A stretch of 64,000 nucleotides of DNA from an uncultured candidatus Porisulfidus sp. (GTDB taxonomy: Bacteria; Pseudomonadota; Gammaproteobacteria; Poriferisulfidales; Poriferisulfidaceae): positions 1,261,888 through 1,325,887 of the forward strand of contig OY288106.1 in assembly GCA_958431155.1 (NCBI GenBank), given 5' to 3'. A program made the position numbers and the translations under genes. The notes beneath the pieces are model-generated. The model was not told where the DNA came from. It did no database searches and was given only the letters and a program-made list of their open reading frames with translations. Below are positions 48,396-57,014 of the stretch, in pieces (position 1 is the first letter of the stretch; each line of letters starts with the position of its first letter).

Positions 48396-48524
48396 TCAGT
48401 GTTTTGCAACCGGGGCGGTCTGCAGCCAAAGCCGGTCCTGTTTGACCAAGGTATTGGCCAGGATAACCAGTTTCCTCATAATGGCCGTCAGCTCCACTTT
48501 TCCTGACTTTCCAGCTTCCCGGAG
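48396..48524 (-). pseudogene. IS110-family transposase, C-terminal fragment
   Basis: Only about 42 codons remain, reading REAGKSGKVELTAIMRKL and VILANTLVKQDRLW before a TGA at 48396. This matches the C-terminus of IS110-type transposases, where LxAxMRKLxxLxNxLxxxD is conserved. The frame is closed by a stop just upstream, where IS30-derived sequence begins. It is a dead remnant interrupted or bordered by the IS30 element. Confidence 0.6.
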
Positions 48525-48600
48525 TCACTTCGGGCCCGTCCGGCCAAGGAGAGGCGGTTCTGGCGTTGCCAGGCGGGCTTTCGTGAGAGCGAAGGGGTGC

Positions 48601-49603
48601 CTACAGAAACCGTTCCAACTGTTGCTGCCAGATGTCCACCACGGGGGCATCCGGTCCGAAGAACACCTCGTTCGGAGTGCTCCAGCCGAGGCAGCGCCGA
48701 GGCCGATTGTTGAGTAGCTCCTCGACCCGCCGCAACTCGGTCTCGGTGATCGTGTCGAAGCGGCGAGACTTCGGGAAGTACTGCCGGATCAGGCCATTGG
48801 CGTTCTCGTGGCTGCCGCGCTGCCAGGCGGCATAGGGCCGGGCAAAGTAAAAGGCCGCCTGCAGGCGCCGGGCGATCCGACGGTGGCCGGCGAACTCGGT
48901 GCCGTTGTCCGACGTCACGGTGAGGACCCAGGCCGCCAGCGGCTGGAGCCGGTCGATCACCTGTGCCGCCACATCGTCGGCCTTGCGCCGGGCGAGATGG
49001 GCCAGGCGGACCAGCCGGGAGCGGCGTTCGGTCAGGGACACCAGAACCCCGCTGCTCCGGCATCCGATCACGGTGTCGGCTTCCCAGTCCCCCAGACGGG
49101 ATCGTGTCTCGACCACCGCCGGGCGTTGTTCTATCGGCAGGCAATCCGGAATCGTCGAGCCCCGCGGCACGCTGCCATACCGCTTGCGCCGCTTCCGGCA
49201 ATGACGCAGGCAACGGTACAGGTCGCCGCCGCGACGCTTGTCTTTCAGGATCCATTGGTATATCCACTCGTGACTGACGCTCGGCGCGCCTCTCCTTGCG
49301 CAGCCACTGGCTGATCTGTTGCGGGCTCCAGTATTGCCGAAGCTGCGCTTCCACCTGGTGTACCAGGGCTGGCGAGATGGGCCGTCGGGCTTTCTGCCGA
49401 CGCCGCTGCTCGGCCTTCTGTTGCGCCCGTTCGGCCTGATAGCCTCCCGACCGGCCACTGCCGTTGCGCCTCAGTTCGCGACTGACCGTGCTTCGATGGA
49501 TGCCCAGCCGCCGGGCGATCTCCGCCTGGCTCAGTTGGTATCCGTTCCGATACAACTCAATCTGGTCTCGTTGCCTCGCGGTGAGTTGCGTGTAACCGCC
49601 CAT
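48601..49603 (-). pseudogene. IS30-family transposase, frameshifted
   Basis: The N-terminal half (from ATG 49603) has the IS30 helix-turn-helix region: LTARQRDQIELYRNGYQ, EIARRLGIHRSTVSREL and WSPQQISQWLRKE. The catalytic half is in another frame: SVSHEWIYQWIL, GDWEADTVIG (first Asp), VTSDNGTEFAGH (second Asp), RGSHENANGLIRQYFPK (Glu), and NEVFFGPDAP near the end. A net +1 base shift somewhere at about 49278-49300 separates them. IS30 transposases are normally one continuous frame of about 330-380 codons, so I read this as an inactivated copy. All DDE residues are still present, so decay is recent or the shift might be bypassed. Confidence 0.88.
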
Positions 49604-49735
49604 AATTGCCTCTCATCCAGGCGGTTTTTGACAATGAGAGGGGACCGCAACTCACTCGCCATTCCCGCCGGTTGCCGGTCGCGTTGCAGTTACGAGTTGA
49701 ATCTAGGACTTGTTGAATTCAGGCCCTGCACAAGG

Positions 49736-49765
49736 TTGCCAAAACTTACTCAAGCAGGTTATACT
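49736..49765 (+). promoter_or_regulatory. sigma70 promoter of autotransporter 1
   Basis: TTGCCA (49736-49741), 18-bp spacer, TATACT (49760-49765). The equivalent site before the second gene is TTGCTA-18-TATACT, so the promoter is conserved between the paralogues. A transcript would start near 49772 and have a leader of about 97 bases. Confidence 0.7.
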
Positions 49766-49814
49766 TGCTGCAACACCCAAACGGCACCCGACATCCCGTG
49801 CGTGGAATCTCGAC

Positions 49815-49825
49815 GGGGGGGGGGG
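49815..49825 (+). repeat. homopolymeric tract of 11 G in the leader of autotransporter 1
   Basis: Eleven consecutive G lie between promoter and start codon, about 43-53 bases after the predicted transcription start and 43 bp before the ATG. The matching place in the second gene reads GAGGGGGAGGGGC, interrupted twice by A. Uninterrupted G runs of this length are typical slippage sites. Confidence 0.9.
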
Positions 49826-49868
49826 CGTTTAGGGCAAGGATGTTAAACGCCAGACATGGAGTGTCATC

Positions 49869-52800
49869 ATGCGAAAGACAAAGTGTGAGAGAAGTGCTGA
49901 ATTGTCTCTCGGAGACGGCAGCACGCACGGTGCGCCAAAAACAACCTCACGTCGCCATGCATGGTGTGCCGCGGTGGCGGTTTTGCTGCTTGGAGCCTCC
50001 ACTCTCGCCAACGCGCAAGGGGTGACGGTGACGTCGTCGTCGCCTTACGCTCTGGACGAGAACGGCACCGACACCTACTCGGTGGTGCTGGACACGCTGC
50101 CGGCGCAGGCGGTGACGGTGACGGTGGCGGCGAGCGGCACCGCCGACCTGACGGCGAGTCCGACCGAACTGACCTTCAGTACCACGAACTGGGATACAGC
50201 GCAAGTGGTGGTGGTGTTGGCGGCGGCGGACGACGACGCGCTGGACGGCGCGGCGACCTTCTCGCACACGTCGACCAGTTCCGACTCCACCTACCACAAC
50301 CTCACCATCGCTTCGGTGACCGCGACCTCGAACGACCCCGACGTCGAAGGGGTGACGGTGACGTCGTCGTCGCCTTACACTCTGGACGAGAACAGCGCCA
50401 CCAACGGCACCGACACCTATACGGTGAGGCTGGACACGCTGCCGGCGCAGGCGGTGACGGTGACGGTGGCGGCGAGCGGCACCGCCGACCTGACGGCGAG
50501 TCCGACCGAACTGACCTTCAGTACCACGAACTGGAATACAGCGCAAGCGGTGACGCTGACGGCGGCGGAGGACGACGACACGCTGGACGGCGCGGCGACC
50601 TTCTCGCACACGTCGACCAGTTCCGACTCCACCTACCACAACCTCACCATCGCTTCGGTGACCGCGACCTCGAACGACCCCGACGTCGAAGGGGTGACGG
50701 TGACGTCGTCGTCGCCTTACACTCTGGACGAGAACAGCGCCACCAACGGCACCGACACCTATACGGTGAGGCTGGACACGCTGCCGGCGCAGGCGGTGAC
50801 GGTGACGGTGGCGGCGAGCGGCACCGCCGACCTGACGGCGAGTCCGACCGAACTGACCTTCAGTACCACGAACTGGGATGCGGTGCAGACGGTGACGCTG
50901 ACGGCGGCGGCGGACGACGACGCGCTGAACGGCGCGGCGACCTTCTCGCACACGTCGACCAGTTCCGACTCCACCTACCACAACCTCACCATCGCTTCGG
51001 TGACCGCGACCTCGAACGACCCCGACGTCGAAGGGGTGACGGTGACGTCGACGGCGGACTTCACCAGTATGGACGTGGGCGACAGCGCCCCCTACGAGGT
51101 GGTGCTGGACACGCTGCCGGCGCAGGCGGTGACGGTGACGGTGGCGGCGAGCGGCACCGCCGACCTGACGGCGAGTCCGACCGAACTGACCTTCAGCACC
51201 GGGAACTGGAATATGGCGCAGACGGTGACGGTGTCGGCGGCGGCGGACGACGATACGCTGGACGGCGCGGCGACCTTCTCGCACACGTCGACGAGTTCCG
51301 ACTCCACCTACCACAACCTTACCATCGACTCGGTGACCGCGGCCTCAAACGACACCGACGTCTTGACCATGAGCGTGGCGGCAGATTCCACATCGGTGAA
51401 TGAAGGCGCCACCGCGCATTTCACGGTGACGGCGAGCGGCGCCGTGACCACCGAGGAACTGACGATCGAATTCACGATTTCCGGCACCGCGACCGCCGAC
51501 CGCGACTATACGGTGCCAAGCCCGACCGCTTTGACCCTCGCGGCGGGCTCCCCGAGCGGTAGCATTTCGATCTCAACGATCGAGGATTCGATCCTCGATG
51601 ATGGCGAGACATTGATCGTTACCCTGTCGAGCGTGTCCAATACTGTCGACCAAGTGACCATCGGGACGCCCAACAGCGCGGAGGCGACGATCGACGACGA
51701 TAGCACGGTGACGCTGAGCCTCTCCAACGCGACGGTGGACGAGGGCGAGCCGGCGGAGTTCACGGTCACGATGTCGGGCCATGTCGCACGCGAGGTGACG
51801 GTCGACTGGACCACGGCGGACGACACCGCGACGGCGCCCGAGGACTACGCGGCGGCCTCCGGCCGCCTGACCTTCAGGCCGGACGAACCGCTGACCCGGA
51901 CCCTGATGGTGCAGACCTCGGGCGACACCCGGGCGGAAGGCGACGAGACCTTCGTGGTCCGACTGTCGAACCCGACCGGCCCGTCGGGCGTGAGTCTCGA
52001 TGACGACTTTGAGGGGACCGGAACGATTTTGGACGACGTCGAGGCCGCGGCGCGGGCACGGCATGACCGGGTCAACCGGAAGCTGCTGCCGCGGGCGACC
52101 CAGGCGATGATCGCCAGCACGCTGTCGGCGATCACCGACCGCATCGACGCGGCGATCTCGGGCGCCTCGTCGGCGACGAACCTGCTGGACCTGTCCGACC
52201 TCGACCGCCTGCTGCGAACCAGCGGCCAGGCGTTGGGGGACGACGCGATGAACCTGGAGCAGTTCCTGGACGGCTCGTCCTTCGTGCTGCCGCTCGGGGG
52301 TGGAGGAAACGGCCCGCCGGACCTCACCGTGTGGGGCAGCGGCGACTACCGCGAACTGTCGGACGGCCAGGACAGCGGCGTGGACTGGAGCGGCGACGTG
52401 CTGAGCTTCCATCTCGGCGCCGACACGCGGCTACGGCCGGACCTGCTGGTCGGCTTCTCCGTGTCCCGCTCGAAGGGCTCTTTCGACTATACCGACCGGA
52501 CCGACCCGCTGACGTTCAGCGGCGACTACGAGAGCCGGATGACCAGCGTGCATCCCTACGTGAACTGGTCGGTGCGGGAAGGGCTCGAGGTGTGGACGAC
52601 GGTGGGCTACGGCCGGGGCGAGGTCGAGATCGAGGAAGCGAACCTGGCGACGCGTTCGAGCGACACCGAGCTGAAGACGGTGGCGGCGGGCCTGAACCGC
52701 GAGCTGTGGTCGCAGGACGACCTGCTGGAGGGCGGCCAGACGACCTTGAGGTTCAAGGGCGAAGGCTCGTATGCCCGGGTCAAGCTGGAAGGCAGCGACC

Positions 52801-53435
52801 GCATGAACCCGCTGACCTCCGAGGTGCAGCGGGTGCGCCTGTCGCTGGAAGCGAGCCACGACCGCCGGCTGGCCTCGGGATCGAGTGTTGTTCCGTCGCT
52901 GGAGGTCGGGCTGCGCTATGACGACGGCGACGGGGTGACTGGCGCCGGGGCGGAGCTCGGCGGCAAGCTGCGCTATCACGATCCGGCGTACGGCCTGACC
53001 GTGGAGGGCCGCGCCCGCGTGCTGGTGACCCACCGGGACGACTACGAGGAGTGGGGCGTCGGCGGCCTGGTGCGGGTTGATCCGGGCGGCGACGGCCGGG
53101 GCCTGTCGCTGGACGTGGCACCGACCTGGGGCGAGCTTGAGAGCGGGCATCAACGGCTCTATGACCAGGGCGCGGTCGACCTTGAGGCCCGCGATGGCGA
53201 GCCGGCGGTCAGTCTCGACGCCGAGATCGGCTATGGCTGGGGCACGTCCGGCGGTCGCGGGCTGTTCACGCCCTATGGCGGCCTGACGCTGTCCGGTGCG
53301 GACGAACAGCGCTACCGCCTTGGCGGCCGCTTCGAGCTTGGGCGGTCGTTCGACCTGAGCCTGGAGGGGGAACGCCGCGAGACCGGCGCCACGGCGGATC
53401 ACAGCCTGATGCTGCGTGCACGGATGCAGTTCTGA
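49869..53435 (+). CDS. autotransporter-type outer-membrane protein 1 with Calx-beta and tandem repeats
   Basis: A 1188-residue surface protein. Residues 1-50 form an extended signal peptide (AVAVLLLGASTLANA then QG). Residues 51-498 are four immunoglobulin-like repeats of 110-114 residues, each starting GVTVTS and containing LDTLPAQAVTVTVAASGTAD. Residues about 499-730 are two Calx-beta-like modules (TSVNEGATAHFTV; ATVDEGEPAEFTV). A linker leads to a C-terminal beta-barrel (about 815-1188, e.g. SFHLGADTRLRPDLLVGFSVS) ending with Phe (RARMQF), the outer-membrane signature. Architecture suggests a type V adhesin-like passenger that may stay attached; cleavage and ligand are unknown. It shares leader, promoter and barrel with the gene at 57015. 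Confidence 0.9.
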   Translation: MRKTKCERSAELSLGDGSTHGAPKTTSRRHAWCAAVAVLLLGASTLANAQGVTVTSSSPYALDENGTDTYSVVLDTLPAQAVTVTVAASGTADLTASPTELTFSTTNWDTAQVVVVLAAADDDALDGAATFSHTSTSSDSTYHNLTIASVTATSNDPDVEGVTVTSSSPYTLDENSATNGTDTYTVRLDTLPAQAVTVTVAASGTADLTASPTELTFSTTNWNTAQAVTLTAAEDDDTLDGAATFSHTSTSSDSTYHNLTIASVTATSNDPDVEGVTVTSSSPYTLDENSATNGTDTYTVRLDTLPAQAVTVTVAASGTADLTASPTELTFSTTNWDAVQTVTLTAAADDDALNGAATFSHTSTSSDSTYHNLTIASVTATSNDPDVEGVTVTSTADFTSMDVGDSAPYEVVLDTLPAQAVTVTVAASGTADLTASPTELTFSTGNWNMAQTVTVSAAADDDTLDGAATFSHTSTSSDSTYHNLTIDSVTAASNDTDVLTMSVAADSTSVNEGATAHFTVTASGAVTTEELTIEFTISGTATADRDYTVPSPTALTLAAGSPSGSISISTIEDSILDDGETLIVTLSSVSNTVDQVTIGTPNSAEATIDDDSTVTLSLSNATVDEGEPAEFTVTMSGHVAREVTVDWTTADDTATAPEDYAAASGRLTFRPDEPLTRTLMVQTSGDTRAEGDETFVVRLSNPTGPSGVSLDDDFEGTGTILDDVEAAARARHDRVNRKLLPRATQAMIASTLSAITDRIDAAISGASSATNLLDLSDLDRLLRTSGQALGDDAMNLEQFLDGSSFVLPLGGGGNGPPDLTVWGSGDYRELSDGQDSGVDWSGDVLSFHLGADTRLRPDLLVGFSVSRSKGSFDYTDRTDPLTFSGDYESRMTSVHPYVNWSVREGLEVWTTVGYGRGEVEIEEANLATRSSDTELKTVAAGLNRELWSQDDLLEGGQTTLRFKGEGSYARVKLEGSDRMNPLTSEVQRVRLSLEASHDRRLASGSSVVPSLEVGLRYDDGDGVTGAGAELGGKLRYHDPAYGLTVEGRARVLVTHRDDYEEWGVGGLVRVDPGGDGRGLSLDVAPTWGELESGHQRLYDQGAVDLEARDGEPAVSLDAEIGYGWGTSGGRGLFTPYGGLTLSGADEQRYRLGGRFELGRSFDLSLEGERRETGATADHSLMLRARMQF
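50019..51362 (+). repeat. four in-frame tandem repeats of 330/342/342/330 bp
   Basis: Units start at 50019, 50349, 50691 and 51033. Units 2 and 3 are 342 bp and nearly identical; unit 1 lacks a 4-codon insertion (SATN), and unit 4 has a different first 30 residues (STADFTSMDVGDSAP). The unit lengths are multiples of three, so gain or loss would preserve the frame. Confidence 0.95.
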
Positions 53436-56744: not shown

Positions 56745-57014
56745 TAATTGCCTCTCGTCTAGGCGGTTGTTGACAGTGAGAGGTTACCGTAACTCATTCC
56801 CCACTCTCGCCGTTTGCCGGTAACGTTGCAGTTACGAGTTGAATCCAGGCTCACTTCTCATGAGAAGAGACTCAAGGTTGCTAAAACACCCTTAAGCAGG
56901 TTATACTCAAACGGCAACACCCAAACGGCAACCCGGCATCCCGTACGTGAAATTTCGACGAGGGGGAGGGGCGTTTAGGGTAAGGATGTTGAACAGCAGA
57001 CATGGAGCGTCATC
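56745..57014. repeat. second copy of the IS30-linked upstream segment
   Basis: Homologous to 49603-49868 (see there). It lacks the adjoining transposase, having only its outer end. Differences include a palindromic CTTCTCATGAGAAG insertion near 56856 and the interrupted G run. Confidence 0.8.
56878..56907 (+). promoter_or_regulatory. sigma70 promoter of autotransporter 2
   Basis: TTGCTA (56878-56883), 18-bp spacer, TATACT (56902-56907); conserved with the promoter of the first paralogue. Confidence 0.7.

Follow-up and report, generated by a model that had tools for sequence, protein, structure and literature searches.

Phase variation through homopolymeric tracts has been described mostly in human and animal pathogens, and an incomplete literature search turned up no account of it for sponge symbionts. 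In uspA1 of Moraxella catarrhalis, a poly-G tract of 8-12 residues lies upstream of the ORF of an autotransporter-class surface adhesin, and in strain 195ME tracts of 8-10 G are accompanied by low mRNA levels and those of 11-12 G by high levels (PMC7302503). In Neisseria meningitidis, poly-G upstream of the outer-membrane protein gene porA is located inside the promoter itself (PMC3639595), while tprL of Treponema pallidum and its paralogues, which encode surface proteins, carry variable poly-G near the transcript start, with transcription beginning 4 nt downstream of a tract that is thus untranscribed (PMC7864442). The locus described here shares with these systems a long G tract upstream of a surface protein gene, yet its tract is positioned downstream of a promoter of constant spacing, in contrast to porA, and is predicted to be transcribed, in contrast to tprL. 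It most resembles uspA1 in tract length, in the class of the downstream protein and in the graded rather than frame-dependent on/off control that is proposed, and we consider that it is probably a simple-sequence contingency locus of the uspA1 type, situated in the transcribed 5' leader of an autotransporter-like surface protein, a reading based on sequence and analogy. The two systems differ in that variable tract length and the resulting change in mRNA are measured facts for uspA1 and a proposal here, in that the present tract is part of a module found in front of several proteins, and in that the two proteins are, as far as tested, unrelated.

The window analysed is a stretch of 64,000 bases (positions 1261888-1325887) of a genome of 1,593,361 bases that is assembled as one contig. 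A preliminary description of this window had reported a run of 11 G between a promoter and the start codon of an outer-membrane protein gene, and had proposed it as a phase-variation switch acting outside the coding part. The run is indeed present as exactly 11 uninterrupted G residues, a length that could be off by one or two, and it is the only homopolymer of more than seven residues in the window (Table 1). When 64-kb sequences were simulated with Markov models fitted to the remainder of the window, 1% of those from the order-2 model and 3% of those from the order-4 model contained a G or C run of at least 11. The tract does lie between a predicted sigma-70-like promoter and the ATG at 49869, approximately 50 bases downstream of the -10 box and at about +43 to +54 of a 97-nt leader whose transcript start is itself predicted, and an in-frame TAG between tract and ATG places it outside the coding sequence, as had been stated. 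The leader had no match in Rfam and no intrinsic terminator was found in it. A leader peptide running from an upstream GTG across the tract was considered and discarded, as the GTG has no Shine-Dalgarno site and the copies of the leader described below end in different frames.

Table 1. Positions of the features discussed, numbered within the 64,000-base window unless marked as genome positions.
Feature	Position	Strand	Remark
IS30-like transposase	48488..49603	-	family read from sequence
Minimal shared 5' module	49727..49975	+	four genome copies
Predicted sigma-70-type promoter, TTGCCA-18-TATACT	49736..49765	+	10/12 matches
Predicted leader hairpin, G tract part of 3' arm	49774..49834	+	RNAalifold consensus
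G11 tract	49815..49825	+	read directly; homologous tracts of 13 and 12 G elsewhere in genome
TAG in frame of ATG 49869, between tract and start	49830..49832	+	read directly
Shine-Dalgarno-like GGAG, 7 nt 5' of start codon	49858..49861	+	read directly
1188-aa surface protein: signal region, Calx-beta-type repeats, C-terminal outer-membrane barrel	49869..53435	+	
C-terminal barrel domain, 455 aa, autotransporter-like fold	52068..53432	+	AlphaFold2, PDB matches
Paralogous module promoter, TTGCTA-18-TATACT	56878..56907	+	
Interrupted tract GAGGGGGAGGGG, homologous position	56960..56971	+	presumed locked form
Paralogous surface protein gene, 2361 aa	57015..64000	+	runs ~100 bases past window end
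Homologous G13 tract	genome 471083-471095		uninterrupted copy outside the window
Homologous G12 tract	genome 602631-602642		third uninterrupted copy

The product of the 49869 gene looks like an outer-membrane protein, in line with the preliminary description, judging from its Calx-beta repeats and a modelled C-terminal beta barrel. The AlphaFold2 model of the 455-residue C-terminus, of moderate confidence (pLDDT 71), consists of a helix and approximately 18 strands, which exceeds the 12 strands usual in autotransporter barrels, and its best matches among solved structures (Foldseek) are the autotransporter beta-domains of EspP, NalP and BrkA (E ~1e-8). In Pfam the protein matched Calx-beta only and not the Autotransporter family (PF03797), and we therefore term it autotransporter-like; PF03797 does match the protein at 602 kb that follows the same leader, as well as one further paralogue. 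Homologues of the barrel, at 30-50% identity, occur in sponge symbionts of many phyla, among them Nitrospirota, Binatia, Gemmatimonadota and Alphaproteobacteria (L155-L233), and the barrel may possibly constitute a sponge-wide surface protein family. The 3' halves of the two window paralogues (at ~51.6 kb, and 4 kb into the 57-kb gene) are 86% identical and contain identical stretches of 120 and 86 bases, a pattern which suggests past gene conversion.

The G11 tract forms part of a module of approximately 250 bp, comprising promoter, leader, G tract, Shine-Dalgarno site and the first ~36 codons, which is present in four copies genome-wide and precedes three proteins of the Calx-beta/autotransporter-like type and an autotransporter whose passenger differs. 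At the homologous leader position the copies carry G11 and the interrupted tract (57 kb) in the window, G13 at 470.9 kb and G12 at 602.5 kb, while the -10 box and the length of the 18-bp spacer are identical in all four. A sequence model retrieved the same four copies and one weak partial match (E 0.14) in this genome and none in five congeners, and the exact core pattern of the module was absent from the other genomes and viral contigs searched. In the 602.5-kb copy, the similarity to the others (81-90% identity) begins a little upstream of the -35 box and stops near codon 36, after which a different passenger and then a PF03797 barrel follow; the minimal unit is therefore limited to the promoter, the leader and its tract, the ribosome site and the N-terminal signal extension. 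The remaining three copies also share an IS30-like end upstream, which in the window extends to ~49710 and recurs before the 57-kb and 471-kb modules. As the copies, which are 79-90% alike, are related by descent, the four tracts are not independent. That pure G has been kept while the copies diverged by 10-19% is only slightly unexpected. The earlier suggestion that one gene is switchable and the other fixed fits the sequence of the two window paralogues, the second tract being broken by two A residues before an intact 2361-aa gene, but the uninterrupted form stands at no fewer than three genes of the genome rather than at one.

Long tracts are also found in congeneric genomes, of which one matches the sponge symbiont 'Candidatus Porisulfidus' (sp. 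TsSOB) and others are sponge MAGs; runs of G50-53 at contig ends and runs at N gaps were set aside in this survey as evident artefacts. Long C or G tracts were observed at the 5' ends of genes for surface or secreted proteins (L071, L073, L076, L086, L088). In genome G001, poly-C of 11-12 residues stands at the 5' ends of a GT2 glycosyltransferase gene (L070), of two N6/N4 DNA methyltransferase genes (L069, L074) and of an N6 methyltransferase gene (L083), which are candidates for phase-variable glycosylation and methylation. The surface-protein, GT2 and methyltransferase tracts of the congeners are C11-C15 or G, their exact lengths and frames being uncertain in these many-contig assemblies. 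In addition, a Dam-type adenine methyltransferase gene carries poly-G (G13-G16) within motif I (F-GGGG-A-L-L-F) in G004, G002 and G001 (L097, L085 and L068, respectively), the frame being intact in G004 and rearranged or chimeric around the tract in the other two, which may represent either assembly error or real switching.

One surface-gene locus is syntenic between this genome, where G13 lies in the leader, and G004, where C13 lies in the coding N-terminus; its upstream neighbours are 81-89% identical and, from their sequence and their place beside mutL, we take them to be miaA and an hflX-like gene. In the c608 paralogue of this genome (L030, 9431-9100, minus strand) the N-terminal codons hold an interrupted coding C tract, CCCCCCCTCCCC, which from its sequence appears to be an interrupted version of the coding poly-C tract of the relatives. 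Taken together, these observations indicate that tracts come back at the same loci and in the same gene classes, with interrupted versions in both designs. Near barrel homologues of sponge symbionts from other phyla, poly-G/C of at least nine residues was found at none of 54 untruncated genes (the 1.2 Mb of that survey contained three such runs); the tracts therefore cannot be put down to the barrel family or to the sponge habitat alone. Promoter/leader ends of the form TGCTAGAAT ... GGCGCC adjoin poly-C before different genes in G001, G002 and G004 (L075, L078, L086, L092, L098), and these ends may represent another dispersed family of 5' modules in the relatives; the poly-C leader of L078, searched for within the genus, was present in G001 and G004 only, which gives no indication that the poly-C leader family and the G-tract module family are homologous.

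Pattern searches of the whole genome identified 17 G runs of at least eight residues, nine of at least nine, six of at least ten and three of at least 11, the last three being the longest G runs of the genome and all belonging to module leaders. Extrapolation from the other 14 runs gives an expectation of ~1.4 runs of at least 11 genome-wide, so that their number alone is unremarkable; it is their position that is striking, though their ancestry is shared. Of the remaining 14, not one was seen at a surface-gene 5' end. The densest homopolymer cluster of the genome is at 1387385-1389799 (L032, L087), with four G/C runs of 8-10 residues in 2.4 kb and no obvious surface gene. MutS and MutL domains are encoded in all six genomes (this one and the five congeners), and a mutator effect through loss of mismatch repair was therefore rejected.

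The possibility that the poly-G is a sequencing or assembly artefact can be given hardly any credence: certain runs in the congeneric short-read drafts do look artefactual, namely those set aside above, but the present genome is a single contig with few long runs, its three longest share one homologous site while differing in length and possessing unique flanks, and intact ORFs of 1188, 2361 and ~4400 aa argue for good indel accuracy. Changes of promoter spacing (as in porA) or of reading frame (the classic coding switch) are the commonest homopolymer mechanisms elsewhere, and congeneric tracts often fall within the first codons, which would favour a frame switch; for the G11 tract both are nonetheless very improbable. 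Promoter spacing should be immune to slippage because the 18-bp spacer is constant in all copies, without indel, the tract lying far outside it with no convincing promoter found to span it; the ORF frame is likewise immune because the TAG closes it downstream of the tract, which precedes the ORF start. With frameshift and spacing changes excluded, the tract therefore acts in the leader, if at all. A further possibility is that the G-rich site works on the DNA itself and triggers gene conversion among the surface genes, through recombination or a quadruplex, as does the pilE G4 of Neisseria gonorrhoeae. The 120-base identical stretch shared by the window paralogues is suggestive of past conversion, and in silico a tract of 11 G or more is sufficient for a two-layer quadruplex, but the identical stretches belong to the 3' halves and so lie a long way from the tract, the module copies are no more than 90% alike and one of the two partners has an interrupted tract, all of which renders such a trigger highly unlikely.

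The RNA structure of the leader bears on two further alternatives. In the RNAalifold consensus hairpin, the pairing partners of the G tract and of the CGTTTAGGG that follows it are CCCAAACG and two CCC triplets, these pairs being mostly invariant in the four copies and without any compensatory change. Compared with shuffles, z ranged from -2.2 (the G11 copy) to -3.4 in the three uninterrupted copies and was -0.6 in the interrupted one, values obtained on a segment chosen after the fold had been seen, which favours the hairpin. The invariance of the pairs, the z values and the persistence of the interrupted copy before an intact gene would all agree with a tract that is inert or purely a structural part of the hairpin, its G arm pairing with the conserved CCC triplets and stabilising the 5' end of the mRNA while its length drifts without use as a switch. 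We regard this as unlikely, given that a hairpin has no need of an uninterrupted homopolymer, for which pure G is an unstable choice, that long tracts accompany the same gene classes in the congeners, where this leader is missing, and that compensatory changes are absent. When quadruplexes are allowed, 11 G are enough for a two-layer quadruplex in silico, and the leaders with the natural 11, 12 and 13 G form it, unlike the interrupted one. For the ribosome site, the models predict a clear consequence in the 471-kb copy, a weak one in the 602-kb copy and one that depends on the chosen 3' end in the window copy; sequestration of the ribosome site as a simple function of G number was discarded, being unpredicted without quadruplexes and inconsistent with them. 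The module could also be a dispersed 'switch cassette' placed before unrelated surface proteins and governed by an RNA-fold threshold at 11 G, with the hairpin below it and the two-layer quadruplex at or above it, a proposal we consider distinctly unlikely; the natural uninterrupted tracts all lie at or above this threshold.

The comparative evidence, that is, the homologous tracts and the gene classes concerned in the congeners, favours a contingency locus, and to this extent the switch postulated in the preliminary description is partly supported. In such a uspA1-like locus, slipped-strand mispairing at replication would lengthen or shorten the G run, and the altered G number would tune the amount of mRNA for the downstream protein or its translation. 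A tract that moves with its duplicated module would allow at least three surface proteins (1188, ~4400 and 1134 aa) to vary independently, with the 57-kb paralogue presumably locked by its two A residues. As a structure through which tract length might be read, the leading candidate is the modelled leader hairpin, whose 3' arm includes the G tract and which may compete with a G-quadruplex requiring 11 G or more. The congeneric tracts compared (L069-L074, L076, L083, L086, L088, L097) are similar in being G/C runs of 11-16 residues at the 5' ends of genes for surface proteins, glycosylation and DNA methylation, yet they differ in that most are located in or beside the first codons and could cause frameshifts, which the G11 tract cannot.

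Contingency loci of this kind are already known, and what is notable in this probable member is the module common to several surface genes and the setting in a sponge symbiont. This genus of sponge symbionts with reduced genomes seems to carry a full contingency repertoire of giant surface proteins, a glycosyltransferase and DNA methyltransferases. If the poly-G tract is a switch, it would probably raise and lower the expression of a surface protein at random, as happens in some human mucosal bacteria. A repertoire of this kind would suggest that random surface variation also serves long-term symbiosis, phage avoidance or host recognition.
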